Origin: Corallium rubrum
Lineage: Eukaryota; Cnidaria; Anthozoa; Scleralcyonacea; Coralliidae
Length of the DNA stretch: 64,000 nt
Reading direction: 5' to 3'
Assembly (NCBI GenBank): GCA_964035015.1
Contig: OZ036005.1
Location: 3,776,547-3,840,546, forward strand
The notes beneath the pieces are model-generated. The model was not told where the DNA came from and did no database searches. It was given only the letters and a program-made list of their open reading frames with translations. A program made the position numbers and the translations under genes. This document shows positions 8,071 to 58,505 of this stretch, piece by piece (within the stretch, counting starts at the first letter, position 1; every line of letters begins with the position of its first letter).

Positions 8071-8540
8071 TAATAGATAAATCCCGAGAACGAGGGATTT
8101 ATGCTATATAAAGACCCGAGGACGCGAAGCGTCCGAGGGCTTTATATCGCATAAATCCCGACGTTCGAGGGATTTATCTGACTTAATTTATGATTGAGGA
8201 GGTTTTCCAACAAAGTTGGGTTTTTTTTTCTACCTTGGACAAAGATTTTCCTAGTTTTTTCCTTCATTTCTTATCTAATTAGTATTCAAGGTCTTTATGC
8301 GATATAAAGCCCTCGAAAGAACAAAGAAAACCGACTCAATCATAAATTAATTGTTGAATATAGTCCTTGGTCATCCTTGTCTAACTCGACTCAATGACCC
8401 TTTTTAGGCGCTGTTCATACGAGGCTGTTCATAACAAAACAAAATTGGCTTCTTTGTTCAGAGTAAGTATAGCACACATGCAGGATATTCTATAATTCCA
8501 GATTTTCGTGACATAAAATCAGCGGCCGGTAACCGAGCTA
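8071..8540. repeat. Dispersed repeat copy, then unique flank of the Tc1/Rep element
   Basis: Positions 8075-8360 are a second copy of the repeat at ~325-560 with inverted arms around CGAGGGCTTTATAT. Positions 8361-8540 show nothing recognisable and end in CGAGCTA, the left target site of the next element. Confidence 0.5.
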
Positions 8541-8791
8541 CAATCGTGGACAAAAGTTGTTGAGAAACATGATTTTCCAACATATTTCAAGTTTGATATA
8601 AATTTGTACAAATCCAGCACCCATCCCCCCCCCCCCCCCCCCTAAACAATGTTGGCAATGTTGGGCAGGCATATTAAGATAATTTTTACAACATTTTCAA
8701 CATTGAATCGGGGGGGAGGGGTGTGAAAACTCATTTATATTGATGAGTTATTGATTATCGTTGATTTTCTCAACAATTTTGTCCACGATTG
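8541..8791. repeat. Terminal palindromic unit 1 of the Tc1-Rep element
   Basis: A 251-bp unit from CAATCGTGG to CCACGATTG. The whole unit folds back on itself: end arms ACAAAAGTTGTTGAGAAA / TTTCTCAACAATTTTGT, then a C-rich arm (CACCC + C-run) facing GGGGGGGAGGGGTG, then CAATGTTGGCAATGTTG facing CAACATTTTCAACATTG. It therefore resembles a long hairpin terminus rather than a plain TIR. Confidence 0.8.
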
Positions 8792-8950
8792 TCTGAATCA
8801 GTAGACAATCAACTTTTAAGAATAAATAGGTGTAGAGGAAATTAGGGCACACGTCATTCTTATAAACTTATGACCTATTTAATTATCCATAAAAATTTAT
8901 GAATTTTTTAAATCAACTATCACACATTCCTAATTAATGACGTCATAAAC

Positions 8951-10049
8951 ATGGCGTTTTCGGGAATGATCAAACCTGAAGTTAGAGCTTATATAAAATA
9001 TTTAAAGAAAATTGGGAAACCAAAAGCAAACGAGGTTGCAAACGAGTGCCATGTATCATTAGCAACTGTTTATCGCATATGGAATGAAAAATTTAATGAA
9101 AACAATGTGAAATGCAACAAAAAACGGAAGAAATCAGGCAGACCTGAAAAGCTGACATCACGAGAAAAGCGTTGTATCCTTCGGGAACTGAAAATGTTAA
9201 GAAAAGAAAATGCAAATTTCACGTCAAAAAAATTACTTATTAGATCTGGAGTAAATCCCAAAAAAGTTTCTTCAAGAACCGTACGACGACTGTTAAATAG
9301 AAACGGATATCGATACTTGCAGGCAAGAAAAAAAGGTCTTTTGAATGATGTGGATATCCGCCGAAGATTTCAATTTGCAAGAAGAATGAGAAAGAGAATA
9401 CGCTGAAGACATTTGGACCAACCAAATCGCTTTTTTCCTCGACGGAGTAAGCTTTATTCACAAGACAAATCCCGCAGATGAAGCCAAAGCTCCTAGGGGA
9501 CGCATTTGGAGGAGAAAAGATGAGGGTCTAGCTAGAGGATGTACGGCAAAGGGTGCCCACGTGGGGACTGGGGGAAGAGTTGTAAAGATGATGGTAGCTG
9601 TTAGTCATGGAGCAGGAGTTGTGTTGTGCGAACAATACCAGAAGCTAGATGGACCGTACTTTCAAAGCCTTATTTACAGAAACTTTAAGCGTATGTTTGC
9701 TGAAGCAAAGAAAGGACGCTCTCGGCTCTGGGTACAAGATGGTGATCCAAGCCAGAATAGTGCTGCTGCTAGAGAAGCGATGAAATCGGTGCGTGCGAAA
9801 TTACTTTCCATCCCCCCACGGAGTCCAGACATCAATCCCATTGAGAACTTTTTCCACCTTGTCAAAAACCAACTCGCTGTTGATGCCCTCGCACAAAATA
9901 TACAGAAGGAAAGTTTTGAGGAGTTCTCCTCCCGAGTGCAGTGTACCATTCTGAACTTCGACAAAGCAGTAATTAATAAAATTGTAGAAAGCATGGATAA
10001 ACGAATGAGGATGATTATTAATTCGAAAGGAAACCGTATTAAATATTAG
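8951..10049 (+). CDS. Tc1/mariner (DD34E) transposase, unit 1, in two overlapping frames
   Basis: The product would cut and paste the element at TA sites. The first frame (8951-9406, 151 aa) encodes two helix-turn-helix regions: residues ~15-45 contain the NEVANECHVSLATVYRIW recognition helix, followed by the basic linker KKRKKSGRPEKLT typical of Tc1. The catalytic domain continues in the +1 frame from ~9390 to 10049. It carries the first Asp in FFLDGVSFIHK, the second in LWVQDGDPSQNS and the Glu in DINPIENFFHLVKNQL. I count 34 residues between the second Asp and the Glu, hence DD34E. The frame change occurs just before the first catalytic Asp and is identical in the second unit. It is either a shared lesion, a tiny intron or a programmed shift. 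A TGACGTCA motif lies ~10 nt upstream of the ATG. The 3' end faces the Rep gene. Confidence 0.85.
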
Positions 10050-10407
10050 AGTTCGTATATATAAACACGCATACAGCGTATCGCATATCACTTCCGTATC
10101 TAATTACACAACACACACACACACACTTCTCGTGTCTGAGATGGATTGAATACAAAAATAAAGCTTATTGTATAAGTAAGGGAAAATCGGAGAAGAAGTC
10201 ACTGTTCTATGTCTTACAAACGAAAGTACATTTAGGAACTAAAAAAAATTTTGGAAGATGTAGTAATCGGAACGATTTAGAACGAGTAACCACGAGTAAC
10301 CACGTTCCACTAAAGATATTATTATTCATAATCTATATTATTTTCCGTTGGTGACTCGTGGTTACTCGTTATATTACTGGTCTATATATAAAATAATGTT
10401 CGAAATG
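10050..10407. other. Convergent intergenic region of unit 1
   Basis: The 358 bp between the transposase and Rep stop codons hold a short (CA)n tract and the iteron-like stem-loop described at 10281-10370. I see nothing else. Confidence 0.5.
10281..10370. promoter_or_regulatory. Iteron-like stem-loop, candidate Rep origin (unit 1)
   Basis: The decamer CGAGTAACCA occurs twice in tandem on the left side (10283-10303). An inverted match lies at the right (GACTCGTGGTTACTCG), forming a stem of ~20 bp around a ~45-nt AT-rich loop. The loop holds TATTATTAT, which matches the circular Rep-encoding ssDNA virus nonanucleotide pattern NANTATTAC except for the last base. Tandem iterons plus a stem-loop are the usual form of a Rep nicking origin. 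Its function here is inference. Confidence 0.4.
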
Positions 10408-10990
10408 TTAGCCCAGTATAAGGTTTGCAAAACATTTGCAGCAGGGAGGAATTTCTTTTTGCTTCTTTTCTTCAATCTGCCAGTTAAACCGAAATATTTT
10501 CCAACGCACAGCCATCATCTCTGTCTCCCTTTCATCAATCGAGCCATTCTTCACATACATAATAGGATTCTTTCCCGTAGCAAATATTGGAGTATCCTTA
10601 GAGAAACATATATCTTTCGCGTAATGTGTTTTCGGTGCCGGCAAATGAACTAACTGGCCCTCAAGAAGAAGCAATAGATCATGCCACGGAATGATTGCTT
10701 GTGACCACCGAAAATCATTTAAAAATAAACACTCGGCTTTCTCTGCGTCGACCCAAGCAAATGTGGTGGACGCTGGATTAGAAAAGGTAACGAATATTTT
10801 CGTCAGGGGGTTTAGCAGGAAGGTTTTACCACAATTCGCAGGACCGACAATCATGATATTGCGGTACTTTCCCCGTCCTTTTGTCAGTAACTCGATAACT
10901 GACTGTTGGAAAGAAGATAAAATTATGCCATTGTTGTGCAGAATTTCTTCGGCGCATCGAAGCCATTCGCCGCCACATCCTTCATTACAA
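10408..10990 (-). CDS. Rep-like protein, SF3 helicase part (unit 1)
   Basis: This minus-strand frame is open from about 10990, overlapping the end of the HUH frame, to 10408. It carries a Walker A motif (IVGPANCGKTFLLNP), a Walker-B-like segment (ECLFLNDFRW) and a motif-C-like segment (DTPIFATGKNP), the order expected for a superfamily 3 helicase of a rolling-circle replication protein. Upstream of the ATG at 10854 the frame is coding-like (CGGEWLRCAEEIL), so this is the C-terminal half of Rep rather than a separate gene. In unit 1 the frame runs on past NWQ for ~23 more residues. Unit 2 has one extra T here and stops earlier. It probably unwinds the nicked element DNA if expressed joined to the HUH part. 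Confidence 0.75.
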
Positions 10991-11914
10991 TTTAGCCGTC
11001 TTTGCTTCCATCAACAATTCCATCCTCGACTTTTGAGCACGACTGTACTTCTCTTTCGCGTTTTCCATTTCCCATGCCGTCTCCAATACTTCAGCCACAA
11101 CCTTCGCGCCGCGATTGACTACGAATTCTGCAATATCTGTCTTTCCTTCGTCCTTCTGCTCTTTTGCCAAAACCAGTAGCTCAGTTCTGCTTTTTATTCC
11201 TTTCTTTACAACAATATCTGACAATTCAAAAGCTGAAATGCGTTTGCGTTTTTTTCCTTTCTCAAATTTTCCTTCACGGCTGTTGCTACTGGAGGAAGCA
11301 GTAAGTTCGTCTTCTGAAGCTGTCTCATTCAGAGAGTCGGCGTTGTTCTGTGTTGCATTATCCATGTCTATGCTCTCTTTGGTTGCCTTCCTTGTGCGTT
11401 GTTTGTTGGCAAGAGAAGCCACCGTCGTTTTCGGTGAATTTGAATTCCACAGATCTGGATGACTTTGGCTTTCGATAACATCTTTGTCTTCCTTCGTGAC
11501 ATATCTCCACGCGCTGTAATAATTGTGATGAACTGCAGAGAAGTGAACTGATATGCCATCATTTTCCTCTAAGTATCGCTTGCTTGAAAGCCAGCGCTGA
11601 TTTCCATCAAATTTTAGCGCCATGTGATAGTGTTTTCCTCCTTCTCGGTGGTTTTCCTGACTACAACACCAGTGAAGAACATTTGCTGAAGCATAACTGG
11701 CGAATGACGCGAGAACAGCATTTGCAAAAGATCGCCGTGTAGGGAAACGATTCAAGTCGGCTTGGCTATAGGTTATCAAGTACACCTTGCGAAGACTTCT
11801 GCGATGCAGTTCGTCGTGTCCAGTGGGGTTTATCTGGCTATCGTTAATGACAATGTCCTCGTTCATATTCCTCAAACTCGCCCCATCACAATCAACTATC
11901 TGCCTTTCATTCAT
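10985..11914 (-). CDS. Rep-like protein, HUH endonuclease part (unit 1)
   Basis: 309 aa from ATG at 11914. Motif I is near residues 44-50 (VYLITYS). Motif II is the HUH pair HYH at residues 95-97 (GGKHYHMALKF). Motif III is YVTKED, with the probable catalytic Tyr at 138 and Lys at 141. These are the nicking/joining residues of rolling-circle Rep proteins such as those of CRESS-DNA viruses. The C-terminal ~110 residues are charged and helical-looking (Ser-rich, then a KGKKRKR nuclear-localisation-like patch). The stop lies where the helicase frame begins in the +1 frame. The same arrangement is in unit 2, so joining by frameshift, by splicing, or as two proteins are all possible. Convergent with the transposase. 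Confidence 0.8.
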   Translation of the reverse strand: MNERQIVDCDGASLRNMNEDIVINDSQINPTGHDELHRRSLRKVYLITYSQADLNRFPTRRSFANAVLASFASYASANVLHWCCSQENHREGGKHYHMALKFDGNQRWLSSKRYLEENDGISVHFSAVHHNYYSAWRYVTKEDKDVIESQSHPDLWNSNSPKTTVASLANKQRTRKATKESIDMDNATQNNADSLNETASEDELTASSSSNSREGKFEKGKKRKRISAFELSDIVVKKGIKSRTELLVLAKEQKDEGKTDIAEFVVNRGAKVVAEVLETAWEMENAKEKYSRAQKSRMELLMEAKTAKL

Positions 11915-12142
11915 GTCCTCAGCGACCTCCCTGCTATTTCACGCACGAATTGAAGTATACCGAAGGTGACAGATAGGGTAATATTAAATTAATACCCACA
12001 ATGCACCAGTGCTTTTTTCTATGATTAATACGTAATTTGCACATTAAAGTAACAGTACATATCCATAATATTTACTCCACCCTCCATATGTATGGCGTTT
12101 AGGGCACTGAAACATATTGTTCTGCCAGTCGCAGCCTACAGA
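11915..12142. other. Presumed Rep promoter region, unit 1
   Basis: The 228 bp between the Rep start and the middle palindromic unit are AT-rich with no further gene. The segment ends CAGCCTACAGA directly before the second terminal unit. The core begins TCTGAATCAG after each terminal unit, giving a small inverted CAGA/TCTG around the middle unit. Confidence 0.4.
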
Positions 12143-12392
12143 CAATCGTGGACAAAAGTTGTTGAGAAACATGATTTTCCAACATATTTCAAGTTTGATA
12201 TAAATTTGTACAAATCCAGCACCCATCCCCCCCCCCCCCCCCCTAAACAATGTTGGCAATGTTGGGCAGGCATATTAAGATAATTTTTACAACATTTTCA
12301 ACATTGAATCGGGGGGGAGGGGTGTGAAAACTCATTTATATTGATGAGTTATTGATTATCGTTGATTTTCTCAACAATTTTGTCCACGATTG
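12143..12392. repeat. Terminal palindromic unit 2 (internal, shared by both units)
   Basis: Nearly identical to 8541-8791 but flanked by CAGA and TCTG instead of TA, so it is a junction inside the element and not an independent insertion at TA. Confidence 0.8.
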
Positions 12393-12551
12393 TCTGAATC
12401 AGTAGACAATCAACTTTTAAGAATAAATAGGTGTAGAGGAAATTAGGGCACACGTCATTCTTATAAACTTATGACCTATTTAATTATCCATAAAAATTTA
12501 TGAATTTTTTAAATCAACTATCACACATTCCTAATTAATGACGTCATAAAC

Positions 12552-13650
12552 ATGGCGTTTTCGGGAATGATCAAACCTGAAGTTAGAGCTTATATAAAAT
12601 ATTTAAAGAAAATTGGGAAACCAAAAGCAAACGAGGTTGCAAACGAGTGCCATGTATCATTAGCAACTGTTTATCGCATATGGAATGAAAAATTTAATGA
12701 AAACAATGTGAAATGCAACAAAAAACGGAAGAAATCAGGCAGACCTGAAAAGCTGACATCACGAGAAAAGCGTTGTATCCTTCGGGAACTGAAAATGTTA
12801 AGAAAAGAAAATGCAAATTTCACGTCAAAAAAATTACTTATTAGATCTGGAGTAAATCCCAAAAAAGTTTCTTCAAGAACCGTACGACGACTGTTAAATA
12901 GAAACGGATATCGATACTTGCAGGCAAGAAAAAAAGGTCTTTTGAATGATGTGGATATCCGCCGAAGATTTCAATTTGCAAGAAGAATGAGAAAGAGAAT
13001 ACGCTGAAGACATTTGGACCAACCAAATCGCTTTTTTCCTCGACGGAGTAAGCTTTATTCACAAGACAAATCCCGCAGATGAAGCCAAAGCTCCTAGGGG
13101 ACGCATTTGGAGGAGAAAAGATGAGGGTCTAGCTAGAGGATGTACGGCAAAGGGTGCCCACGTGGGGACTGGGGGAAGAGTTGTAAAGATGATGGTAGCT
13201 GTTAGTCATGGAGCAGGAGTTGTGTTGTGCGAACAATACCAGAAGCTAGATGGACCGTACTTTCAAAGCCTTATTTACAGAAACTTTAAGCGTATGTTTG
13301 CTGAAGCAAAGAAAGGACGCTCTCGGCTCTGGGTACAAGATGGTGATCCAAGCCAGAATAGTGCTGCTGCTAGAGAAGCGATGAAATCGGTGCGTGCGAA
13401 ATTACTTTCCATCCCCCCACGGAGTCCAGACATCAATCCCATTGAGAACTTTTTCCACCTTGTCAAAAACCAACTCGCTGTTGATGCCCTCGCACAAAAT
13501 ATACAGAAGGAAAGTTTTGAGGAGTTCTCCTCCCGAGTGCAGTGTACCATTCTGAATTTCGACAAAGCAGTAATAAATAAAATTGTAGAAAGCATGGATA
13601 AACGAATGAGGATGATTATTAATTCGAAAGGAAACCGTATTAAATATTAG
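12552..13650 (+). CDS. Tc1/mariner (DD34E) transposase, unit 2, in two overlapping frames
   Basis: The predicted protein is the same as in unit 1: a helix-turn-helix frame at 12552-13007 and a catalytic frame from ~12991 to 13650. The same frame change lies before the first Asp, and the same DDE residues are present. The few nucleotide differences near the 3' end (for example AATTAATAAA versus AATAAATAAA) are silent in the transposase frame. The near-identity shows that the two units separated recently. Confidence 0.85.
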
Positions 13651-14070
13651 AGTTCGTATATATAAACACGCATACAGCGTATCGCATATCACTTCCGTAT
13701 CTAATTACACAACACACACACACACTTCTCGTGTCTGAGATGGATTGAATACAAAAATAAAGCTTATTGTATAAGTAAGGGAAAATCGGAGAAGAAGTCA
13801 CTGTTCTATGTCTTACAAACGAAAGTACATTTAGGAACTAAAAAAAATTTTGGAAGATGTAGTAATCGGAACGATTTAGAACGAGTAACCACGAGTAACC
13901 ACGTTCCACTAAAGATATTATTATTCATAATCTATATTATTTTCCGTTGGTGACTCGTGGTTACTCGTTATATTACTGGTCTATATATAAAATAATGTTC
14001 GAAATGTTAGCCCAGTATAAGGTTTGCAAAACATTTGCAGCAGGGAGGAATTTCTTTTTGCTTCTTTTCT
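13651..14070. other. Convergent intergenic region of unit 2, with candidate Rep origin at 13880-13969
   Basis: Same content as 10050-10407, with a slightly shorter (CA)n tract. The iteron-like stem-loop with the TATTATTAT loop motif is fully conserved at 13880-13969. Confidence 0.4.
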
Positions 14071-14590
14071 TCAATCTTGCCAGTTAAACCGAAATATTTT
14101 CCAACGCACAGCCATCATCTCTGTCTCCCTTTCATCAATCGAGCCATTCTTCACATACATAATAGGATTCTTTCCCGTAGCAAATATTGGAGTATCCTTA
14201 GAGAAACATATATCTTTCGCGTAATGTGTTTTCGGTGCCGGCAAATGAACTAACTGGCCCTCAAGAAGAAGCAATAGATCATGCCACGGAATGATTGCTT
14301 GTGACCACGGAAAATCATTTAAAAATAAACACTCGGCTTTCTCTGCGTCGACCCAAGCAAATGTGGTGGACGCTGGATTAGAAAAGGTAACGAATATTTT
14401 CGTCAGGGGGTTTAGCAGGAAGGTTTTACCACAATTCGCAGGACCGACAATCATGATATTGCGGTACTTTCCCCGTCCTTTTGTCAGTAACTCGATAACT
14501 GACTGTTGGAAAGAAGATAAAATTATGCCATTGTTGTGCAGAATTTCTTCGGCGCATCGAAGCCATTCGCCGCCACATCCTTCATTACAA
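14071..14590 (-). CDS. Rep-like protein, SF3 helicase part (unit 2)
   Basis: Equivalent to the unit 1 helicase frame, with intact Walker A (GPANCGKT) and motif-C-like segments. Two differences matter. The residue after the Walker-B-like LNDF is Pro instead of Arg. One extra T near 14078 shifts the end, so the frame stops at NWQD. Confidence 0.7.
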
Positions 14591-15514
14591 TTTAGCCGTC
14601 TTTGCTTCCATCAACAATTCCATCCTCGACTTTTGAGCACGACTGTACTTCTCTTTCGCGTTTTCCATTTCCCATGCCGTCTCCAATACTTCAGCCACAA
14701 CCTTCGCGCCGCGATTGACTATGAATTCTGCAATATCTGTCTTTCCTTCGTCCTTCTGCTCTTTTGCCAAAACCAGTAGCTCAGTTCTGCTTTTTATTCC
14801 TTTCTTTACAACAATATCTGACAATTCAAAAGCTGAAATGCGTTTGCGTTTTTTTCCTTTCTCAAATTTTCCTTCACGGCTGTTGCTACTGGAGGAAGCA
14901 GTAAGTTCGTCTTCTGAAGCTGTCTCATTCAGAGAGTCGGCGTTGTTCTGTGTTGCATTATCCATGTCTATGCTCTCTTTGGTTGCCTTCCTTGCGCGTT
15001 GTTTGTTGGCAAGAGAAGCCACCGTCGTTTTCGGTGAATTTGAATTCCACAGATCTGGATGACTTTGGCTTTCGATAACATCTTTGTCTTCCTTCGTGAC
15101 ATATCTCCACGCGCTGTAATAATTGTGATGAACTGCAGAGAAGTGAACTGATATGCCATCATTTTCCTCTAAGTATCGCTTGCTTGAAAGCCAGCGCTGA
15201 TTTCCATCAAATTTTAGCGCCATGTGATAGCGTTTTCCTCCTTCTCGGTGGTTTTCCTGACTACAACACCAGTGAAGAACATTTGCTGAAGCATAACTGG
15301 CGAATGACGCGAGAACAGCATTCGCAAAAGATCGCCGTGTAGGGAAACGATTCAAGTCGGCTTGGCTATAGGTTATCAAGTACACCTTGCGAAGACTTCT
15401 GCGATGCAGTTCGTCGTGTCCAGTGGGGTTTATCTGGCTATCGTTAATGACAATGTCCTCGTTCATATTCCTCAAACTCGCCCCATCACAATCAACTATC
15501 TGCCTTTCATTCAT
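14585..15514 (-). CDS. Rep-like protein, HUH endonuclease part (unit 2)
   Basis: 309 aa, differing from unit 1 at about four residues: Arg instead of His just before the HYH motif (GGKRYHMAL), so the first His of HUH is lost here; Ala for Thr in the NKQRARK segment; and Ile for Val in EFIVNRG. The loss of the first HUH histidine predicts that the unit 2 Rep cannot coordinate metal normally, while unit 1 keeps HYH. Motif III is unchanged. Confidence 0.75.
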   Translation of the reverse strand: MNERQIVDCDGASLRNMNEDIVINDSQINPTGHDELHRRSLRKVYLITYSQADLNRFPTRRSFANAVLASFASYASANVLHWCCSQENHREGGKRYHMALKFDGNQRWLSSKRYLEENDGISVHFSAVHHNYYSAWRYVTKEDKDVIESQSHPDLWNSNSPKTTVASLANKQRARKATKESIDMDNATQNNADSLNETASEDELTASSSSNSREGKFEKGKKRKRISAFELSDIVVKKGIKSRTELLVLAKEQKDEGKTDIAEFIVNRGAKVVAEVLETAWEMENAKEKYSRAQKSRMELLMEAKTAKL

Positions 15515-15742
15515 GTCCTCAGCGACCTCCCTGCTATTTCACGCACGAATTGAAGTATACCGAAGGTGACAGATAGGGTAATATTAAATTAATACCCACA
15601 ATGCACCAGTGCTTTTTTCTATGATTAATACGTAATTTGCACATTAAAGTAACAGTACATATCCATAATATTTACTCCACCCTCCATATGTATGACGTTT
15701 AGGGCACTGAAACATATTGTTCTGCCAGTCGCAGCCTACAGA

Positions 15743-15983
15743 CAATCGTGGACAAAAGTTGTTGAGAAACATGATTTTCCAACATATTTCAAGTTTGATA
15801 TAAACTTGTACAAATCCAGCACCCCTCCCCCCCCTAAACAATGTTGGCAATGTTGGGCAGGCATATTAAGATAATTTTTACAACATTTTCAACATTGAAT
15901 CGGGGGGGAGGGGTGTGAAAACTCATTTATATTGATGAGTTATTGATTATCGTTGATTTTCTCAACAATTTTGTCCACGATTG
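15743..15983. repeat. Terminal palindromic unit 3 (right end of the Tc1-Rep element)
   Basis: The third copy of the hairpin unit, shorter by a contracted C-run. It ends CCACGATTG|TA and defines the right boundary of the insertion. Confidence 0.8.
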
Positions 15984-15985
15984 TA

Positions 15986-16220
15986 GCTCGCTTTATGTGA
16001 ACAGCGGAACGGCCCCTATCTATAATTCACACATCTATATAGAATAGAATAGAATAATTTATTTAATCACGTTTCGCCTATGAGCTATTAAAGCTCGTTC
16101 AAAATACGACCGTGAGAATTACATTACATTACCTTACATTACCTTACATTACATTACATTACATTACATTACATTACATTACATTACATTACATTACATT
16201 ACATTACATTACATAAATAT
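15986..16220. repeat. Retroelement-like tail and (ATTAC)n microsatellite
   Basis: AATAGAATAGAATAG is followed by AATTTATTTAATCACGTTTCGC, then a (ATTAC)n tract at ~16110-16213. This looks like the 3' end of a LINE on the minus strand with a simple-repeat tail. The tract also marks the left edge of the 22-kb tandem duplication, since copy B starts in a short version of it at 39039. Confidence 0.5.
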
Positions 16221-16493
16221 TTAAAAAAAATCAAAAATATATATAGTATATATATAGTATAATATAGTATAATATAATAGTATAGTATAGTATAATATAG
16301 TATAATATAGTATATAGTATATATATATAGTATAATTGTTTGGGTTTATCAATAATCTAGGATATATGATGTTGAAACTAAGAAAATCGAACAGAATGTT
16401 TATGCAAATCAGGATGTTATATATAAATACGTTTTGTGGAAACACCACGTAAAATATTTCTTTGCTAAGCTTTTGGCCAGTGACTCAGGCCTT

Positions 16494-16798
16494 TACCCTG
16501 CGAGTCAGAGCCCCTTTCCGACCTACGCAGGCTTCGGGGGAAAGTGGGCTCTGCCAACAAACTCGATATTTCTTTTTGAGCATGCGTGAATGGTTGCCAA
16601 GATACTATTTTGGGCCCAGGCTATAACGCGTTACTTGCTATAATCCTACTAACGCGTGTTCATAAACTAGAACTTGTTTGACCAGTTTAAAACCTGACTG
16701 ACTCGCCCCAAACTTGGGGCGAAGATCGAGTTTGTTGGCAGAGCCCACTTTCCCCCAAAGCCTGCGTAGTTCGGAAAGGGGCTCTGACTCGCAGGGTA
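16494..16798. mobile_element. 305-bp MITE with 9-bp target duplication TCAGGCCTT
   Basis: It begins TACCCTGCGAGTCAGAGCCC and ends in the reverse complement. The inverted arms extend ~80 bp (CCGACCTACGCAGG, AAAGTGGGCTCTGCCAACAA). TCAGGCCTT flanks both ends, and the uninterrupted target (CTCAGGCCTTCATCAGAGC) is visible at ~41302-41318. A 9-bp duplication suggests Mutator-type mobilisation. Copy B has it too (39396-39699), so it inserted before the duplication. Confidence 0.8.
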
Positions 16799-16942
16799 TC
16801 AGGCCTTCATCAGAGCAATGAGAACATTCTTGATTTTGTTTTCTAATTAATAAAATTAACGTGATACGCCATTGTATTCTTACGTGATTTAATTGATCAG
16901 TTGCTTAGTTTATAAACAACGTGAGCCAACAACTTGTTGTCA

Positions 16943-16986
16943 TTGCTCTGATGAAGGCCTGAGTCAACAGGCCGAAAGCTTAGCAA
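16943..16986 (+). ncRNA. Hammerhead ribozyme motif
   Basis: Stem I TTGCT/AGCAA brackets the core CTGATGA, a 6-bp stem II (GGCCTG/CAGGCC) and CGAAA, then a minimal palindromic stem III (AGCT) before the cleavage-site position. All conserved core bases are present. The very short stem III is typical of Penelope-type hammerheads, which may act as dimers. Confidence 0.65.
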
Positions 16987-17175
16987 AGAAATATTTTACG
17001 TGGTGTTTCCACAAAACTTATTTATATTACTTTATCGCCATGAAAACTTTCAAAGGATATTATATTTTTAAAATTTTTTATGAATTATTAATTTTTAGAA
17101 TTAACTCCAATTTGTATACTATAGCTTCTAGACGATGGTCCCTAAGAACGAAAGCTCACTTATTTTACTCGGCTT

Positions 17176-17609
17176 TTATATTGGCGCGTATTTGACCCTT
17201 ACGCCACCTGGCAGATTGTGGTTGCTTAGCAGCTCCATAGCTGTGACGTTTGTTCCAGGCATGGTGGCGTTTTGGGTATTGAAAACGTCATGAAAGCGAT
17301 GTCTGGTGCTCTTAGCTTGCCACTCTTCCCAGATCTTATCAATGAACGAGTGATGGGGTAGAAATTCTGGTGCGGCAGCGTTATTCAGCTCTGATAGCAT
17401 CGTACCCCCAATGGCAATGTAAATCATGTTGTTCAAGTTGAAGCGCATCATGAAAGTAAAGTCGTCGAATTGTGAGAGATTCTTGGCTAAGACTTTATCC
17501 ACTGCGGAATCATCTGGTACGGTTCCTGGATTTTGATTAAAGTCTCTTCGCAGACAGCCTCCCCCAGCGCTTTTTATCAGTGTCCAGTTGTTGGCAATAC
17601 TGAACAGAC
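17176..17609 (-). CDS. Tyrosinase-like copy A, exon 6 (CuB-like region and C-terminus)
   Basis: The acceptor TTTTCGGACAG|GT continues codon phase 1 from exon 5. The exon encodes 143 residues, including [11 protein letters not shown], the altered LNNMIY where tyrosinases normally have a His-x3-His pair, [25 protein letters not shown] and the terminal VRVKYAPI. It is almost identical to 40543-40110 in copy B. Confidence 0.85.
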
Positions 17610-20600
17610 CTGTCCGAAAACAATGTAGAAATTAGTGTAAGCAGAAGTGTTTTTACCGTGTTTGGGTGTCAAAATAGGAAAGGAAAGGACCCACGGGCCA
17701 ATCATCCTTACTTGCAGCCAGTGACTGAAATGCGTAGGACGCAGATCAACGTGGTTGAGTCGAAGGCACATGAAAGGCACTTCAGACAGCCGTCATACGA
17801 CACAACATTCTCGGTGTTGATTATGTAGTATTTCTCAAAGTCATTAATAATTCATGAGCTAATAGATATCCAAACACCGAGACGTTTGTTGAAAACTGAG
17901 GCGAAGTCGAGGTTTTTGACGGAACGTCGAGATGTTTGGATACACTCTCCGAGTGTATGATATAGCTCCTTAAACAAATCAGTATTTTAAGAAAAATCGG
18001 GGTGAAAGTTTGCTTAATTATGTAATTTCTTCCCCCAATATCCAAACCTCCTGCACGTTTCATCATGAATTATTAATGATTTGAGGTGAGCAGGTAAAAC
18101 ATTGCCTTCAACTGAACCCCACATTTCTTTATTTAACGTAATTCCTCAGTAATTCTTCCAGAATGAATAGTTGCTGAAACTCCCCAGTATTGAAGTTTAT
18201 GATATGTTCACAGTAAAATAACCAAAAAAAAATAAATTGGGGTCACCGAACTCGTGCTAGTAAACCATGATGTCTTCCCAATTTGTAGCTACTTTGGCTA
18301 ACTTTTGATTTCGTCTTGTTATCTTGAAAAATCCTTCATAAAAGCACTTAGTTTATACTGACTGGAAAAATATTTGATATATAGATGCACTTATATATGA
18401 ACTATTTAGTAGCAAATAACAATTGACAAACATTTTGCGATAGAATGTCAGTAGTAATACCCCCCCCCCCAAATGGCAACCAAAGGGATGCCGCCTCATT
18501 AAATATTCAACTTATTATTTATTCATTTTATAGCGTCGCGTTACGTCACTAAGTTCTAACCCTAGTCCCGGCACCCCCGTACCCCCGCTTTTAGCCAACC
18601 CCCCCGGGATTTTGACTACGTCATTCATTCTCATGCTCCTTCAGGACCCCCTAGCCCTAACTTTCCCCCAACCCCCTAACCCTAGCTTTCATTCAACCCC
18701 CCGTGCGATTTATTATTTATTCATTCTCATGCTCCTTTGGGACCCCTCTAACCCTAACCTTGGACTCCCTATGAGCCGCTCAGGCAAATGCTAGAGTTGA
18801 TTCTGTTATAAGTACTTTAGAACCTAAATATTCAGACAAAACCAGCACAGAATTATTGCTAAGCCATCGTTTATAAAAACAAGTGAAGAAACCGTAGGAA
18901 GAAGCTTAGTTTGTCAGTTTGGGAAACCATGAGAAAAACGTACAACACGAACTTAGAAAGTTTTGTGAATATTGACCAAATACCCTACTTTGAAACATTG
19001 CAGAGCTTGGTTAAATAATTCGTTGCTATGGTTTGGTATGCTATAAGATTCTCGCACGTGCAGAACACAAAAAGGGAAAAGCTATTAAAACCTCATCACG
19101 GGTCATTAGTGGTACAACTCGCTTGTATTTGCATATACTGTAGAATATGTAATTATTTGTGGGGTTGTGAATCGAAGGGATAATAAGGGATATGAAGGCG
19201 TTTTAATGCGTAGGCATGTTTAGGCCAAAAAGTCATTAGCGCGTACTTTGCATAAGACAGAATTCACAACAATCAGTTTAAAATATTTATTTACACAGAA
19301 AACTCTTGATTATTTAGTGATCTATCGGTAACACTAGCATATGGGCATACAGTACATCTTATAATCCGAAGGCATGGATCATGAGTCTTGAATTCTGTAC
19401 CACAAACATTACATATCAGATTTCGAATAACGCATTTGTTAAAATATTTCCACAAACACTTAGGACACTCAATTACATGTGTAAAATTAACAGGATTCTG
19501 ACAACGTTCGCAATCAACAGGTTTGTCAATTATAGAATTTTCTGATTCTATTTCGGTGTAATCTTTATCGTGTTCGGAATCTTCTTTGGAGGAAGTTTCT
19601 TCGTTTTCGCTCTCTGATTCTGTTTCTTCTTCTTCTGCCTGCGTCAACATTGTCAGCACTCGAACATTTTCGATAAGGTTTTTGTCAATGTTAATGTCGG
19701 CGAGTCCTCTTACAAATACATTTAGACCAGCTGGTTCGGGAATTCCTGAGACGTAAGGTGATACGCAGTATTCTACCAATTCGGCTATTTTTGTGTTTGG
19801 TATAGTTCTTCCTTGATACACAATTTCTCCTTTGGGATTCCATGTTAAGTTGACATAGGATGCGTGTAAACTATTCAGCAAAGAAGACGCTGTCGCTTCA
19901 TCCACTCCGTAGTCAAAGTGTGACAGTATTTCTTTAACACGAAAATCATCATGTAATCTTTCCCCATCGTGTTCAGGGTTCGAATGAGGGTCTTTATAAA
20001 ATATCGTCCTTTTATATTAGTTCTGCGAGTCCTTCTAAAACAGGACCAAGTAAGACATCAAGAAATCCTGCACCTTTTTGAATCAGTATCTCCTTTTTTC
20101 TCATAAAACTACTTCGGGGACTAGCCAAAGTTGATATGTCGTCGCTATAAGGCTTAACGTCTTCAAGCAAAGCAGGTGAAATTGATATTGCATTGACCAA
20201 AAGCTCAACATACAATCACAAATGCATCTAATTTGCTCGGGGCTTGCAGTCTCTAACAGAGCTCGCTGTTGAATAGGTTCACTTGTACATAAAAGTTCAA
20301 GAAACGGTTTGTGCTTTTTGATCAACATCTCTATTTGACAGTCAGTGTCTAAATGAGGAAAACGCTACCAAAACACACATTTTAAGAGGAGGAGGAGAAA
20401 GAGGAGGAGGAGAAAGAGGAGGAGGAGGAGAAAGAGGAAGAGAAAGAGGAGGAGGAGGAGGAGGAGGAGGAGAAAGAGGAGGAGAAGGAGGAGGAGAAAG
20501 AGGAGGAGGAGGAGGAGGAGGAGAAAGAGGAGGAGGAGGAGGAGAAAGAGGAGGAGGAAGAGGAGGAGAAAGAGGAGGAGGAGGAGAAAGGAGGAGAAGG

Positions 20601-23600
20601 AGGAGGAGGAGAAAGAGGAGGAGGAGAAAGAGGAGGAGGAGGAGAAAGAGGAGGAGAAGGAGGAGGAGGAGAAAGAGGAGGAGGAGGAGGAGGAGGAGGA
20701 GGAGGAGGGAAAGAGGATGAGGAGGAGGAGGAGGGGAAAGAGGAGGAGAAGGAGGAGGAGAAAGAGGAGGAGGAGGAGGAGAAAGAGGAGGAGGAGGAGA
20801 AAGAGGAGGAGGAGGAGAAAGAGGAGGAGAAGGAGGAGGAGGAGAAAGAGGAGGAGGAGGAGGGGAAAGAGGAGGAGGAGAAAGGGGAGGAGAAAGAGGA
20901 GGAGAAAGAGGAGGAGAAAGAGGAGAAGAAGGAGAAAGAGGAGGAGGAGGAGAAAGAGGAGGAGGAGGAGAAAGAGGAGGAGGAGAAATAAATAATATGA
21001 CATTTTCTAGAAATGTTTATTCTGCTCATGCTCTTCAACGAGTGAACATGTCTTATGTCTGCAGCACTTGTGGAAAAACGTTTTCTACACTATTCAACAT
21101 GCAACGTCATATAAAAAATTTCCATAAAAACAGTACTTATTCAAGACCAGCACATCTTCTCAATGACGCAACAGTCATGCAGCATCCATTTACTTGCATT
21201 GTCGCTGGATGCACACAGAGTGGTAAAACAGTATGGGTGAAAACGCTTCTTGAAAACGCCAAAACTACGATTAATCCTCCTCCCGAACGTATCATTTGGT
21301 GCTATGGGCAATGGCAGCCCATGTATTTAGAAATGATCAAAACAATACCAGGCATCGAATTCTATGAGGGTATACCTTCCGACATTGACTCTGATAATTT
21401 TCTTGAAGTCTCTCAACGTAACCTGATCGTCCTCGATGATCTCATGGATCAGTCAGGAAGAGATAAACGTATTGCTAATTTATTTACTAAGGGAAGTCAT
21501 CACAGGAATCTCTCCATGTTCTACATTGTTCAGAATATATTTCACCAAGGCAAAGAAACAAGAAACATCAGCCTCAACGCACACTATATCGTACTATTCA
21601 AGTCTCCGAGGGATAAGCAACAAATTTCTGTCTTGGCACGGCAGGTGAACCCAGGTCATGTCCATGAATTTATGAAGAGTTACGAGGAAGCCACAAGTCG
21701 CCCTCATGGTTATTTAATGCTTGATCTAAAGCCGACTACGGACGACGATCACCGCCTCAAGACCAATGTTCTACCTGGCGAAAATAGCTCCAGCCTGCAG
21801 CAACAGCTGGGTAGTTTCATACAAAAGCAATCCTATCAATTACCTCCGATCGTTAATGCCATGTACAATACAGAACAAAAAATGCAAGATATTGTACAAG
21901 CGCCACAGTTAACACCTGACGAAAAGAACATACTTTACTCCAATCAGCTAGGACGTTTTCTGACGTTTCAAAACCAACTGCAAAATCAGGCTCAACCTCT
22001 GACTAATCTTCAAACTCAGCAAAATACAGAAAATTTGACACCAGAGAAAAAGCAAGGAACTGACGATCTTCCATGGAGTTTCCATGCTACACCTAAAACC
22101 TATTTTGTAACACCGCCTCCTACCGTTGAACAACCGACGCTTAAACATAATTTCTTTCATAATTGGGAAAGCTCTTCGGATTGGAAAGAAAGCGACTTGG
22201 CAAAGATGACCCCAGATGATAGAGAAGAGTATGAACATCATCTATTGATGACTAGATCAAAATATTTACCCATGACAAAAGAAGATGTATCATAATTATC
22301 ATCAGAGGACAAGAAAGATTATCATGCTACCTTTAAAATAAAAACACCTAAATATAATCTAAGAACAGACCTTACTAAAACTTTTTTATATGTAACCGTA
22401 ATTTGTTTTGATATGTGTAAGTTTAAACCAAAGCCTAAATAAATCTTTTAAACTGATTGTTGTGAATTCTGTCTTATGCAAAATACACGCTAATGACTTT
22501 CTCGCCTAGACCTGCCTAATGCTCTTAATTGCCCCTAATGAGTTTTTCTTTTGTCTCCTGCACGTGCACTGAGGATAAATATTCAAATATCACTGCAACT
22601 ATGTGTGCACTGATCCATCCTGACGCCAAATAATATTTCGTTTATATACCGTCACTTAAAATGGCTCCTACGGCTTTTCGAATTGATTCCTCGTCTAAAA
22701 TCTTAAGTTCTACTTACGATTTCTTCACTTATAAACAAAGGTATAGTTAGGAATGATTCTAGGGTGATTGAATATTTAGGTTCTAAACCTAATATAATAT
22801 TCATTATATGCTATTAATCTAAGTCTATACGAGCTCTGCCAATTCAGACACTCAGACTGCTCAAAACTCTCTATACTCATCGAGACAAGGTTTCAGATAA
22901 AAAATATAAAGTGCCTCTATCAATTTGTAAAGAACGTCTAGTTTGTTAAAGTTTAGTGTACGCATGCTCTGTACGTCTGCGTGTCCCACAACTGTCGACT
23001 GTCAGTAGGGTAAAGTGTTTAAATGAAAAGGTGATTACTATTACTTATAAGGATATAAGCCGAGTACCTTTTGATAATGGCGTAACTTCGGAAATCAGTC
23101 GGAGAGCTATCGGTTATGACGGGGGGTTGAGTAACAGCTAGGGTTTAGGGGGAAAAGTTAGGGTTAAGACGGCCCCAAAGGAGCCTGAGAACGAATAAAT
23201 AATAAGTCAGTATGACGTAGTAAATACCGGGGTCCTGAAGGAGCATGAGAATGAATGACGTAGTAAAAATCCGGGGGGGTTGGCTAAAAGCGGGGGTACG
23301 GGGGTGCCGGGACTAGGGTTAGAACTTAGTGACGTAACGCGACGCTATAAAATGAATAAATAATAAGTTAAATATTTAATGAGGCGGCATCCTTTTGGTT
23401 GCCAAATGGGGGGGGGGGTGTGTGTATTACTACTGATGTCCGCATTGTTTCTTGTTACGTGTTTTTTGAAACCGCAAGAAGGAAAAACGTACGATATTTC
23501 AAATTCACGAAATGATTTTTTCTCTATTGCATATATGCTGTTGAGCTGGTGAAGGACATAAATAATTGAAAAAAAAGGTCACTGAGTGTCTTCGTGAGCT

Positions 23601-26600
23601 ACACAAGGTTGGAGCCTGAACTGGAGCATTTCCCTATCATTTCATCTATATACGAAAGCACCGTACAACGGATTTTGAACATTAAATACGGCTTGGCTAA
23701 GGGTAGTTATCTTAACAGACGTCCGGTGAACGTTTAAAATAGTAGTAATAGTAGTATACCTGTGCCAACACATCTTGACTCGTTCACGCCATTCCCGCCG
23801 AATCCGTAAGTGTCATTCCAGAAATCACTTTTGAATGGATCCTCGGCTACCAGAGACCAGTCCCAATACGGTACAGTGATCCAACAGTCGATCTCGCGAA
23901 GGAGATTCTCATATTGCAGCACGAACCACCTGTGCCAGGGCAGAAATAACTGATCTTGTTCTATTCCGTCTCTCTGATGTGTTCTGTGTTTGGTCAGGAG
24001 CGCTTCGTACTTCGTCTTGTACGGTTCTTGTGTAGAGACAACTAGCACCGCATTCAAATAGCGTAATCTTTCTTCTTTTGAGATATGCGTGAACTCTCTA
24101 CGAACTCGATAGCAGTCTGTCAGATTTCCATCACGACAAACACACACACGGTGACACTTATCCACCAGTGTGGAATTTTCACGGCAAGCTAAACGAGGGT
24201 CTACAGTGGTTGTGGGTTTCACAGTGGTTGTTGGTTCTGCAGTCGTCGTGGGTTTTATGCTGGAAGTGGGTTCTACAGTGGTCGTGAGTTCTACAGTGGT
24301 CGTGAGTTCTACAGTGGTTGGAGGTTCTACTGTGGTCGTAGGTTTTTCAGTGGTCCAAGGGTCTCCAGTAGTCCAAGGATTTTTGGTTGTCTTCGGTTCT
24401 TTAGTAGTAGATGTTTCTGTGGTAGTCATTGGCCTTATTGTCGTTTTTCTTGTTTGACATGGAAATAGTTTTCTCATGACTGAAACGTTTGAAAACATTA
24501 GCATTTTTATTAATATATTAGTAATAATAATACTAATTATATTGATTAATAGTACAATAATACATTATTACAATTGTTATTATTAAAATGTATTGTCTAG
24601 TTGTGTTGTCTTGTGGTGTTGTGTGGTGTGGCGTTGTGGTTAATTTGGTGTTGTGTGATGTGTTGTGGTGTGTTGTGTTGTGTTGTGTTGTGTTGTGTTG
24701 TGTTGTGTTGTGTTGTGTTGTGTTGTGTTGTGTTGTGTTGTGTTGTGTTGTGTTGTGTTGTGTTGTGTTGTGTTGTGTTGTGTTGTGTTGTGTTGTGTTG
24801 TGTTGTGTTGTGTTTGTGTTTGTGTTGTGTTGTGTTGTGTTGTGTTGTGTTGTGTTGTGTTGTGCTGCGCTGTGTGTGCAGCGCTGCGCTTTGCTGTGCG
24901 GAGTGTTGTGTTGTGTTGTGTTGTGTTGTGTTGTGTTGTGTTGTGTTGTGTTGTGTTGTGTTGTGTTGTGTTGTGTTGTGTTGTGTTGTGTTGTGTTGTG
25001 TTGTGTTGTGTTGTGTTGTGTTGTGGTGTGGTGTGGTGTGGTGTGGTGTGGTGTGGTGTGGTGTGCTTTTGCGGAGTGTTGTATTGTATCGTGTTGTGGT
25101 GTTCGAGTATGAATAATCTTTACATGAGCATGTCTTACCAAAGCGAACGTAGTAGACACCGCAATGTCGGAAACGGGTGGGATAACGAGTACGGAACGGA
25201 CGGCGACGACGGAGGGGACGACGAACATAAGGTGGGCGTGGATATTTTCTGTAGTAAGGATACCCGTTTTTCGATTGGCGATTCTTTGGCGGTCCTGTTG
25301 TCAAGAACATCAAAGACAGATATCATTGATTTATCTATTGTGTTTCTGTGGCCAAGAAGGCAGTACTACCAAAATTAGTAGAGTCCTCGTCGGACGCAAA
25401 ATAACGACATGTCAATAACAAGCTTAACGCAAAGGAATGTAATCACGTGAGTGAAGGAATGCAGTCTTTGGCAACGTTCGACGTTACATCTGAAGGACGC
25501 AAACACCACCGTGGGTTGTCCACGCAATATTTACATTGTGTACATATAAGTCGTTGACTTGCGAGATCTTTTCAACAATCGAAACGTCAAGCTTGTTGTT
25601 GACGCGTCGTTATTTTTGGCCTAATACGCATAAGTGAAGTTAGTGCTTGTCGTGCTAAACTGCAGACATTGAGGGAAGCACAGAAAATAGTGTTCCAAAA
25701 CCGAAAACAATGTTCCAAGCAGATCGGATTCTTGCATTTTTCGGTCCGATTGGACTGTCAATCTACTTCATGTAAACTGGGCCTTGCTAAACGTGCCAAG
25801 TTTGAGTTTTGAAGTCATTCATTGTGATAACCCGAAGATATACAGGGTTTTTATATTAAACATTTCTAAGTAGATATTTCATACCTAAAACTAGAACTCC
25901 ACCAAACACATTGCTGCTGTAAGTCTTGGTAGGTATGGAGGACGTTTGCTGACCTGGTGGTGAAGGATGGTTTGCTTGATATTCTCCTGAAGGAGGCCAG
26001 CCTAATGAAAACAATTAGGTTTAAACAATAGTTGTAGTTGTTGCTGGTGGTGGTGGTGGTGCTGTTGCTGCTGCTGTTGGTGGATAGTGGTGTCCGAGTT
26101 TGTGGTGATGGTGGTGGTGGTGTTGTTGTTGGTGGTTGTGTTGTGGTGGTGGTGGTGGTTGCGGTTTTTGTTTTGTTTTGTTTTGTTTTGTTTTGTTTTG
26201 TTTTGTTTTGTTTTGTTTTGTTTTGTTTTTGCTTTTGGTTGTTATTGCCGCTGTTGCTGCTGGTTGTTGATATTTTCGCTGCTTTTGCTGTTGTTGATGG
26301 TGGTGGTGATGGTGGTGTTGCTGTTGTTGTTGGTGGTAGTGTTGTTGTTGGTGGTGTTGTTGTTGTGGTTGTTGTTGTTGCGGTGGTTGTTGTTATCACA
26401 GGGACCACAACAGTCTTCTTATCTTTCTGTTTTCAAACCCCTTTCATTGGGAAGAGCCATTTTACAATTAGTTCTGTCAATCAAAGTAGTCACACAGCAC
26501 TCACCTTGGTAATGTTGTTCGATTGAACCAGGATTACCATAACTGTTAGGGTTGTTACCATTAGTGTCTGAGTTGGTGCCATCAGCGTCAGGGCTATTAC

Positions 26601-31600: not shown

Positions 31601-34600
31601 CTTATACCAGACTATTTTACTCTGGCTTACTCTGGCTAAACCAGGCTATTTTACTCTATCTAACTCCAGACTATTTTACTTTGTCAAAGGCCAGCCTATT
31701 TTACTCTGGCTAACGTCAGACGATTGTATATTCTGTTGAGTGCTAGACTTCTTCTCGGTCTAACGCCAGATGATTGTACTCTGTCTAACACCAGACTATT
31801 CTACTTTGTGTAAGTGGCTAACGCTATAGATAATTTTACTCGTCAAAGAGAGGCCCTTCAGTGACAAAGGAGGTAAGAAAAAACATATGAGCAGGGGGGT
31901 GGTGGGAGCTTAAACGCCGGATAATGTGTTAGAGAAATAGAATGAGTGTGGATAACCGAGTCGAACCGCTTATTAAAACCATTTAGCGAGGAACTATTTT
32001 AAAGCTCCGGAGATTCTCGATGAAAGGCCGAGAGAAGGCCAAAATGTCCCTCCTCTACCTCAAACTCTCATCTAACGTAATAGTTACTGCTTATAACGGT
32101 CGCTACAAAAATGGTTTCGCATTAAGATCGATCTAACTTGGATCAATCTCGCATCGATCTCCAGGTTTGCTTGGAGAAAATGTTGTACTTGTTTAGATCG
32201 ATCTCACACTCGTTTAGATCAATCTCAGAGTTTTTTAGATTGTATAATCTTAGACCCGTGTAGATCAATCTCGCGCTCGTTTAGACCAATCTTTAGATCA
32301 ACCTTGCACTCGTTTAGATCAATCTCACACTTTTTATAGATCAATCTCACACTCGTTTAGATCAATCTCATACTCGCTTAGATCAATCTCACACTCGGAT
32401 CAAGTTTAGATCAATCTCACACTCATACATACATACACACATACATACATACATACATACATACATACATACATACATACATACATACATACATACATAC
32501 ATACATACATACATACATACATACATACATACATACATACATACATACATACATACATACATACATAATTTATTTATACACGGTAAAATCATCAGTATAA
32601 CTATTTACATCACTAAGGAAGTTAACAAGAATAAAACTAATTAAATATATTACAATTCTATTACACTAAAAAGAAGTAAAGAAGTTAAACAACAATTAAG
32701 ATTGTGTAATTCCGAGTTTATTTCAGGCTCAAGTTCACCTAGGCTTCCAGCAGAGGCTTATATTTGTGTCGTCTGCGAATAAATTAGCTGAGGCCTTACA
32801 GAGGCAGTTCGGCAGATCATTGATGTAAATCAAAAAAAGCAAAGGGCCAATAATGCTCCCTTGAGGTACCCCACAGCTAATTTCACTAGATTAGAGAAAC
32901 AACCATTTACACTGCATTTTTGGCTCCAGTTGCTCAGATAAGAATTAAACCACCTGAGGGCATCTATATCGACTCCATAGTTTGCAAGTTTACGAAGTAG
33001 AATTTCGTGGTCAATAGTATCAAAGGCCTTCTTTAAGTCAATGAAAATAACTCCATTAAGAAGGCCCTTGTCTATATTGACTGACCAGTTATTAGTAGCT
33101 TCAACTAATGCTGTAAGTGTGCTATGGAGTGAGCAAAAACCAGATTGACAGTTAGTTAAAAGTTTGTTTCTGTCAAGGTAATCGTAAAACTGGTTATATA
33201 TTATTTTCTCAAATATTTTCGAGACAATTGGTAGAATCGAAATTTGGCGGTATTTGCTGAGTTAAATTTGGACCTATATTCGTGAAATATTCATTAAAGG
33301 TCTCAGCCATTGCAGTAGGAGAATTAATAATTTCTTCTCCAAGTTTAGTTTGAGAGATATTTTGTGATTTGCTACATTTACGAGAATTCAGCTCATTGAT
33401 GAGTTTCCAAGTTTTGCGAGGATTAGTTTTACTAGCTTCTAGATTTTCTGTAAAATACCGTTGTTTAGCCGCTCTAATTGTATTGTTGGTTTGATTTCTC
33501 GCATATTTGTATTGTTGCCATGACAATGCATCATTCTTGGATATTGGCTGCTTTTTAAGATAATCTCGTTTGTGCATTTTTCGCATTAATTCATTTGTAA
33601 TCCAAGGTGAGTCCTTTTTGCCAACACGTTTGCTCTGATATGGCGCATATTTATCAATAGTTTCCATAATCATTTTTTTCCAGAGGTTCCACATATCGTC
33701 CGGATTTGTTTGAATGTGGACATCATCCCATGATTTCTGTGATAAATCACAAAGGAATCCATCCTTATTAAATTTTTTATAAGTACGTGTTTGAATTATA
33801 CGTGTGGCTCCTTGTTCATAATGGGTTTTACGAGTCGCATAGATCATTGAATGGTCACTAATACCAAGATGTAGAACCCCTGAGTTAATTATTTTTTGAG
33901 GTGAGTTTGTCACACACAAATCAATCAACGTTTGCGAATTAAGAGTAACTCGTGTTGGTTCAGTAATCAATTGACTTAGCCCATAAAGATCAAATAAACT
34001 CTTTAGATTAGAGGCATTGGATGAAATTTCTGTAGTGTAGGTAGCAAATCACAATTAATATCCCCAAGCAGATGACATACTCTATACCCTCAGCGTCAAT
34101 CTTGTCAATTAATTTCTCAAATGCGTTAAAAATATTGACTGGAGAACTCGGAGGTCTATACCAAGTGCTGACCAGAAATGATTTAGAGCGTGGTTTGGTA
34201 ATTTCAATACTCAGATACTCTAATAACGTGTCGTCTAGATCGTGATAAACATACGCCACCGCCATTTCTGCCATTTACATTACGGTCTTTTCTCACGACT
34301 TCAAAACCTGGCAGGTGTATTTCATTATCATGAATAATTAATCTAATTTAGTTTCGTTTATTGCAAGAATGTCGATTTTAGAAGTGTTCATAAATACCCT
34401 AAGCTCATCAATGTGAGCTAATAAACTATTAATATTTAAACATGCCAATGCTAAACCACGACCCGTTATATTAGAGTCTAAAATAATTGACTTACCCTCT
34501 GAACTTGACATGAAAGGAGTTTCCTGGAGCACAGCTGTTTTATCGGATTTCCAGTCGGCAATAACCTAGTCTTCTCAAATAATTTATAAAGTTACGAGCC

Positions 34601-38031: not shown

Positions 38032-38097
38032 TGGAATAAAGCGTGCAGATTATAATCCATCAAACAATATCCACAACACAAGCACATAAGAAGAACC

Positions 38098-39034: not shown

Positions 39035-39177
39035 AAACATTACATTACCTTACATTACATATAATAAATATTAAAAAAACAACAAAAATATATATAGTAT
39101 ATATATAGTATAATATAGTATAATATAATAGTATAGTATAGTATAGTATAGTATAATATAGTATAATATAGTATATA

Positions 39178-39235
<58 letters not shown>

Positions 39236-39395
39236 ATTGTTTGGGTTTATCAATAATCTAGGATATATGATGTTTAACCTAAGAAAATCGAACAGAAAGT
39301 TTATGCAAATCAGGATATTATATATAAATAAGTTTTGTGGAAACACCACGTAAAATATTTCTTTGCTAAGCTTTCGGCCAGTTGACTCAGGCCTT

Positions 39396-39699: not shown

Positions 39700-39846
39700 T
39701 CAGGCCTTCATCAGAGCAATGAGAACATTCTTGATTTTGTTTTCTAATTAATAAAATTAACGTGATACGCCATGATTGTATTCGTACGTGATTTAATTGA
39801 TCAGTTGCTTAGTTTATAAATAACGTGAGCCAACAACTTGTTGTCA

Positions 39847-40109: not shown

Positions 40110-58505
<18,396 letters not shown>

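Follow-up and report, generated by a model that had tools for sequence, protein, structure and literature searches.

A head-to-tail dimer of a Tc1/mariner-type element with a Rep gene at one TA site in Corallium rubrum: possible pasting from a replicated circle

How did two copies of an element that joins a Tc1/mariner-type transposase to a virus-like Rep protein come to lie head to tail at one TA site? The question is raised by positions 8541–15983 of a 64,000-nt stretch of Corallium rubrum DNA (assembly GCA_964035015.1, contig OZ036005.1, positions 3,776,547–3,840,546 of the forward strand). This whole stretch is called the window below, and all coordinates are positions in it. Tc1/mariner elements are textbook cut-and-paste transposons, which depend on the host for their copying. 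One answer, to which we give an even chance, is that the locus is the defective, dimeric form of a mobile element with two enzymes and an extrachromosomal circle, in which Rep would do the copying and the transposase the pasting.

The locus reads H1, core A, H2, core B and H3, that is, two head-to-tail units with a palindrome, H, at each end and another between them, and its limits are exact, 8541 being the first base of H1 and 15983 the last base of H3 (Table 1). Each H is an imperfect palindrome along its whole extent, and all three have the same orientation. The DNA around H2 (12136–12405) has a folding energy of −59 kcal/mol, compared with −26 on average for shuffled sequences (z −9.5); the apex of H on its own gives a fold z of −1.94. 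The outermost ~27 bp of H resemble, as we take it, the inverted repeats of Tc1. The 27-mer at the end of H occurs three times in the window, each time exactly, although up to three mismatches were allowed (shuffle mean 0.00), and no lone H was found elsewhere in the window at three mismatches in 27 or two in 15.

The outer flanks, GAGC-TA before H1 and TA-GCTC after H3, make the site palindromic. The inner edges of H have no adjoining TA, and the palindrome there extends by four bases (CAGA-H-TCTG). Since TA is present at the outermost ends only, the whole dimer is inserted within one duplicated TA. The combination of a TA duplication and terminal inverted repeats that characterizes Tc1/mariner elements is thus found here, at a single locus. 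No empty insertion site was found within the window: a stretch at 39037–40785 resembles 16186–17863, which starts ~200 bp to the right of the junction, and the match of the left flank to 325–564 ends ~240 bp short of the junction.

Alignment of the two units over 3603 columns shows 12 that differ (eight substitutions and three indels, the latter covering four columns). The one difference between H1 and H2 is a C in a run of Cs; a comparison of H3 with H1 shows two base changes and ten gap columns, the size of the C run included. One explanation for the tandem would be an error of assembly at a locus that is really a monomer or a longer array. Near-identical units are indeed hard to assemble, but the eight base differences and three indels are scattered along the units and H3 is distinct from both H1 and H2; we consider such an error very unlikely. 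A preliminary description of this DNA, made from its letters alone, had spoken of two near-identical units in tandem, three copies of a terminal hairpin and one TA duplication around the whole, and in all of these it was right.

The first of the two enzymes is readily placed. The transposase matches the Pfam families HTH_Tnp_Tc3_2 (36.5 bits, cut-off 31.5) and DDE_3 (41.7 bits, cut-off 28.6), and among solved structures it is closest in sequence to Sleeping Beauty (6.7e-13) and in fold to Mos1/Sleeping Beauty. Relatives of both genes were collected at expectation values (E) up to 0.001, which gave 938 for the transposase and 231 for Rep; 120 of each were listed, and a further search, described below, brought the listed transposase relatives to 165. 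The three residues of the DDE triad are kept in 164/165, 164/164 and 161/165 of these. P0121, an intact relative of 363 amino acids (aa), matches the NCBIfam IS630 equivalog at 1.4e-21 but with 77.2 bits, below the cut-off of 100. Judged by its sequence, the transposase is of the Tc1/mariner/IS630 kind, with a DD34E triad.

The second enzyme, whose gene is convergent to that of the transposase within each core, is more remote from known proteins. The Rep pieces of the window give weak scores in Pfam, under the cut-offs. Sequence comparison with PDB gave one match for the N-terminal piece, a geminivirus Rep at E 1.8; the best match was an unrelated protein at 0.04 for the C-terminal piece, and the best for a Rep profile stood at 0.16. 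No match was found in PHROGs, and nothing close to a cut-off in NCBIfam. The predicted model of an intact relative, P0001 (530 aa), is more informative: its HUH part is nearest to the geminivirus Rep nuclease, and for the helicase part and the chain as a whole the closest solved structures are those of the Rep of adeno-associated virus (AAV; Rep68, Rep40). The whole-chain matches have a root-mean-square deviation above 20, so the single-domain fold matches alone are firm; the Rep model has a predicted template-modelling score of 0.51, and the other four models have predicted local distance difference scores of 64.9–70.1. In the best 120 of the 231 Rep relatives, the two HUH histidines are present in 119/120 and 117/120 and the tyrosine in 120/120, while, in the rows with a letter at the position, the lysine of the YxxK motif is present in 119/119 and that of Walker A in 98/98. 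This near-invariance of the catalytic residues indicates that the enzyme has been kept. From the predicted fold, Rep is a protein with an HUH nuclease and an SF3 helicase, like the Rep of CRESS-DNA viruses. The preliminary description had placed a DD34E transposase and an HUH/SF3 Rep in one unit, and Pfam, sequence and the fold of the Rep relative bear out this gene content; the genes, however, are not intact (see below).

The predicted fold also brings to mind a linear, AAV-like replicon, in which H would be a terminal hairpin telomere, Rep would carry out hairpin transfer and each head-to-tail joint would hold one H. The double-D joints of AAV offer a comparison for joints that share one terminal hairpin, and both the AAV-like helicase part and whole chain of the predicted Rep and the long palindrome at both ends are in keeping with such a replicon. 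Hairpin transfer, however, should give both orientations of H, and the three are alike, which is weak evidence; moreover, the HUH part is nearest to a geminivirus Rep. We regard the AAV-like replicon as unlikely.

How, then, might a circle have given rise to the dimer? The extrachromosomal phase would be a circle of ~3.6 kb, made up of one H and one core. Rep would nick an origin and copy this circle head to tail; the transposase would then pair the outward-facing ends of two H on the resulting multimer and paste the intervening DNA into a TA. The products that could be inserted in this way would be one H alone, H-core-H or, as at 8541–15983, H-core-H-core-H. Pasting from a concatemer predicts that TA should be found only outside, that H should be whole at both ends and that the units should be in tandem. 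In agreement with this, TA is at the outer ends only, each end and the joint between the units consist of a whole H, and the three copies of H share one orientation.

The layout of the genes also argues for a circle. If one H and one core are joined into a circle, the divergent genes have their 5′ ends on either side of H, and their 3′ ends meet at a second palindrome, with 25-nt arms that are 92% complementary (z −6.65) and repeats of GAGTAACCAC that are iteron-like. This is also the plan of circoviruses, in which the capsid gene stands where the transposase stands here. No capsid gene was recognised in the coral element; core A holds five further ATG-initiated open reading frames (ORFs) of at least 60 aa beside the Rep and transposase pieces, and these have no Pfam match at 0.1.

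An important question is whether Rep is a lasting partner of the transposase. All four coding pieces have as their best match either P0001 (79% and 91%) or P0121 (78% and 85%), and both of these relatives are on contigs of 13,745 bp. When the 120 listed Rep relatives were compared with the 165 listed transposase relatives, seven contig sizes proved equal (13745, 3485, 9211, 327380, 14805, 4136 and 3811 bp); the seventh pair was supplied by a third search, which was seeded with six already-paired transposases and run among 7998 candidates. As a control, one list was shifted by 1–60 bases either way. For pairs of at least 3 kb, seven were observed against a control mean of 0.77 (maximum 4); for pairs of at least 9 kb, four against 0.008 (maximum 1); and without a size floor, seven against a mean of 1.87 (maximum 6). 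Since the control is near zero at 9 kb and above, the four long pairs are firm, whereas some of the three short ones may be due to chance. Equal size probably means the same contig, and thus linkage of Rep and transposase in the relatives. This suggests that Rep is a recurring partner of the transposase rather than a chance insertion. Contigs of 3.5–4.5 kb, about the size of one element, account for 19 of the 120 listed Rep entries and 37 of the 165 listed transposase entries, and some clusters of Rep relatives have many member sequences (e.g., 286, 218 and 166). The named sources are Acropora millepora and Porites evermanni for Rep and Dendronephthya gigantea and Holothuria leucospilota for the transposase.

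The same data bear on the idea that Rep is a passenger, virus-derived or other, that came by chance to lie within a Tc1 element of the host genome. According to Liu et al. (PMC3198968), sequences related to Rep occur widely in the genomes of eukaryotes, and the numbers of relatives, 938 for the transposase against 231 for Rep, mean that some transposases of the family may be without Rep. A passenger, however, would not be expected to leave relatives of both genes on equal-sized contigs, with all four pieces pointing to 13,745 bp, and no further pair of terminal repeats was found around Rep alone among the listed inverted repeats of at least 14 bp in the unit. The passenger idea thus appears highly improbable. 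The preliminary description had also envisaged that all other copies might carry only a transposase, and the equal-sized contigs, in so far as they denote linkage, count against this.

Several observations nevertheless weigh against a circle copied by Rep. Firstly, neither unit has an intact gene for either enzyme: the transposase and Rep are each split between two frames, and the breaks are identical in the two units. As P0001 and P0121 are continuous, these breaks are most likely damage. The Rep of unit B is damaged further, the first HUH histidine being replaced by arginine and an invariant arginine of the helicase by proline, and its C-terminal piece has 179 aa against 200 in unit A; four of the five Rep substitutions between the units are nonsynonymous. 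Since the same breaks are found in both units, the dimer derives from one template that was already defective, and, with both genes broken in both units, working enzymes must have come from other copies. If the dimer was pasted from a concatemer, such copies would have supplied the enzymes that moved it.

Secondly, the lead to an origin is weak. The exact motif TAATATTAC is present on the 5′ side of Rep; it is expected 0.028 times per core by simulation, for a motif that was picked after the fact, and it is in no significant hairpin (z −0.46). Thirdly, the co-divergence of Rep and transposase is not significant, with r 0.55 over the seven pairs (reached by 278 of 5040 permutations) and r 0.50 with six pairs (reached by 119 of 720). 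Fourthly, no relative was confirmed for Rep in IMG/VR, GTDB genomes or phage records, or for the transposase in IMG/VR.

Finally, crossing-over between H repeats would yield this dimer without Rep. An H-core-H element would have entered a TA by cut and paste, and its direct ~250-bp H repeats would later have undergone unequal sister-chromatid exchange, or slippage, by which the core was doubled. Direct H repeats do flank the core, the single C between H1 and H2 and the 12 differing columns between the units are as for a recent duplication, and the common frame breaks point to one template; the dimer itself is accounted for as well in this way as by a replicated circle. The preliminary description had suggested that the dimer is an integrated product of an excised circle replicated by Rep, and crossing-over would produce the same dimer. 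What crossing-over leaves unexplained is the keeping of a catalytically conserved Rep beside the transposase and the layout of the genes around H. We take this explanation seriously, while doubting that it is the right one.

A transposon with both Rep and transposase has a published precedent. In the text available from Liu et al. (2011; PMC3198968), an element of Tuber melanosporum has a geminivirus-like Rep ORF and two transposase ORFs, with 37-bp terminal inverted repeats and no obvious target duplication. It resembles the coral element in being a repeat of a eukaryote whose terminal inverted repeats enclose a virus-like Rep ORF as well as transposase ORFs, and each H-bounded unit in the coral likewise holds Rep and transposase between the same terminal repeats. 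It differs in being fungal, in its geminivirus-like Rep, in its two transposase ORFs (of a superfamily that this text does not name), in its 37-bp repeats and in its lack of an obvious target duplication; no tandem sharing a palindrome is described in that text. The mechanism proposed for the coral element would be new if shown. The preliminary description, which knew of no characterised element that works in this way but allowed for related sequences in repeat libraries, must be softened on this point in view of the truffle element. No Tc1/mariner element with Rep was found in a literature search that covered titles and the starts of abstracts, with Repbase, preprints and most subscription journals outside its scope.

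Other known systems share parts of the coral element. With Sleeping Beauty and Mos1, it has in common the DD34E transposase with its helix-turn-helix domain, the TA duplication and Tc1-like terminal repeats; it differs from these Tc1/mariner elements by the Rep gene, by ends that are whole ~250-bp palindromes holding both inverted repeats and by tandem units that share one palindrome. AAV and other parvoviruses, along with CRESS-DNA viruses, have an HUH and SF3 initiator and either palindromic ends or an ambisense layout, whereas the coral element, without a recognised capsid gene, is integrated at TA by a transposase. Its likeness to Parvoviridae lies in the helicase fold of the predicted model and in the palindromic ends, and does not extend to a capsid match. 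Helitrons and Replitrons are also eukaryotic transposons with an HUH nuclease, but their own HUH enzyme drives their movement; the Rep of Helitrons is joined to another type of helicase, and their insertion makes no target duplication. The coral element, in contrast to Helitrons, has a TA duplication, Tc1-like ends and a predicted SF3-type helicase part. The concatemer-pasting step has been proposed for Teratorn, in which the transposase would cut the unit between two transposon copies from a concatemer made by rolling-circle replication and paste it elsewhere (PMC10175614); Teratorn, however, measures ~180 kb and combines piggyBac with a herpesvirus, whereas the coral unit measures 3.6 kb and combines a Tc1-type transposase with Rep. 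In two further papers, DDE and Rep/HUH elements are listed as separate subclasses (PMC5718144), and Rep proteins found with giant rotifer retroelements are given as a hint of circular intermediates (PMC6431247).

A bolder proposal, tentative but to be given considerable room, is that the locus represents an undescribed element widespread in animals, in which a Tc1/mariner transposase would provide entry into the chromosome and an AAV/geminivirus-like Rep would multiply the excised circle. H would then serve as a transposon end and also as a hairpin for replication; the same concatemers would be the source of monomers, dimers and lone palindromes, and Tc1 transposition would be self-replicative. 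If this is true, such an element could amplify fast without a host fork, unlike textbook Tc1/mariner elements, which are copied by the host. It would also provide a small, testable link between single-stranded DNA replicons and DNA transposons, and the concatemer with its composite ends would be one route to tandem arrays and to lone palindromes resembling miniature inverted-repeat transposable elements.

Table 1. Features of the dimer and its insertion site, in window coordinates
Feature	Position	Strand
Left TA of the target-site duplication	8539–8540	
H1, 251-bp imperfect palindrome; outer ~27 bp taken as Tc1-like inverted repeats	8541–8791	+
Core A, 3351 bp	8792–12142	
Transposase, N-terminal piece, unit A; first ATG of the domain at 8951; HTH_Tnp_Tc3_2	8912–9406	+
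Transposase, C-terminal piece, unit A, other frame; DDE_3, DD34E	9390–10049	+
Palindrome between the converging 3′ ends, unit A; arms 10278–10302 and 10349–10373; repeated GAGTAACCAC; candidate terminator or origin	10278–10373	
Rep, C-terminal piece, unit A; predicted SF3 helicase part	10408–11010	−
Rep, N-terminal piece, unit A, other frame; predicted HUH nuclease part; first ATG at 11914	10985–11938	−
Exact TAATATTAC on the Rep strand; weak origin lead	11978–11986	−
H2, 250-bp palindrome common to both units at the head-to-tail junction	12143–12392	+
Core B, 3350 bp	12393–15742	
Transposase, N-terminal piece, unit B	12513–13007	+
Transposase, C-terminal piece, unit B	12991–13650	+
Palindrome between the converging 3′ ends, unit B; arms identical to those of unit A	13877–13972	
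Rep, C-terminal piece, unit B, shortened; invariant Arg to Pro	14071–14610	−
Rep, N-terminal piece, unit B; first HUH His to Arg	14585–15538	−
H3, 241-bp palindrome, right end	15743–15983	+
Right TA of the target-site duplication	15984–15985	

The window holds other features outside the dimer. An ORF at 20991–22292 (+) has a C2H2 zinc finger and a match to a Pox_A32-like packaging ATPase (8.5e-07); it is perhaps a Polinton- or adintovirus-like remnant. Pieces of a tyrosinase-domain gene are found in duplicated stretches at 17179–24564 and 40110–46768 (−), the latter with ~181 copies of an 18-bp repeat at 43225–46469. A reverse transcriptase (RVT_1, 3.9e-16) at 32833–34048 (−), with a weak endonuclease match, resembles that of a long interspersed nuclear element. 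ORFs at 59171–60451 (+) have a weak GIY-YIG match (0.0042, under the cut-off), and 59304–60539 is 96% identical to 36845–38097. At 62407–63116, a tRNA-Ala call lies at the edge of a tandem array of 7.8 copies of an 89-bp repeat with 96% matches.

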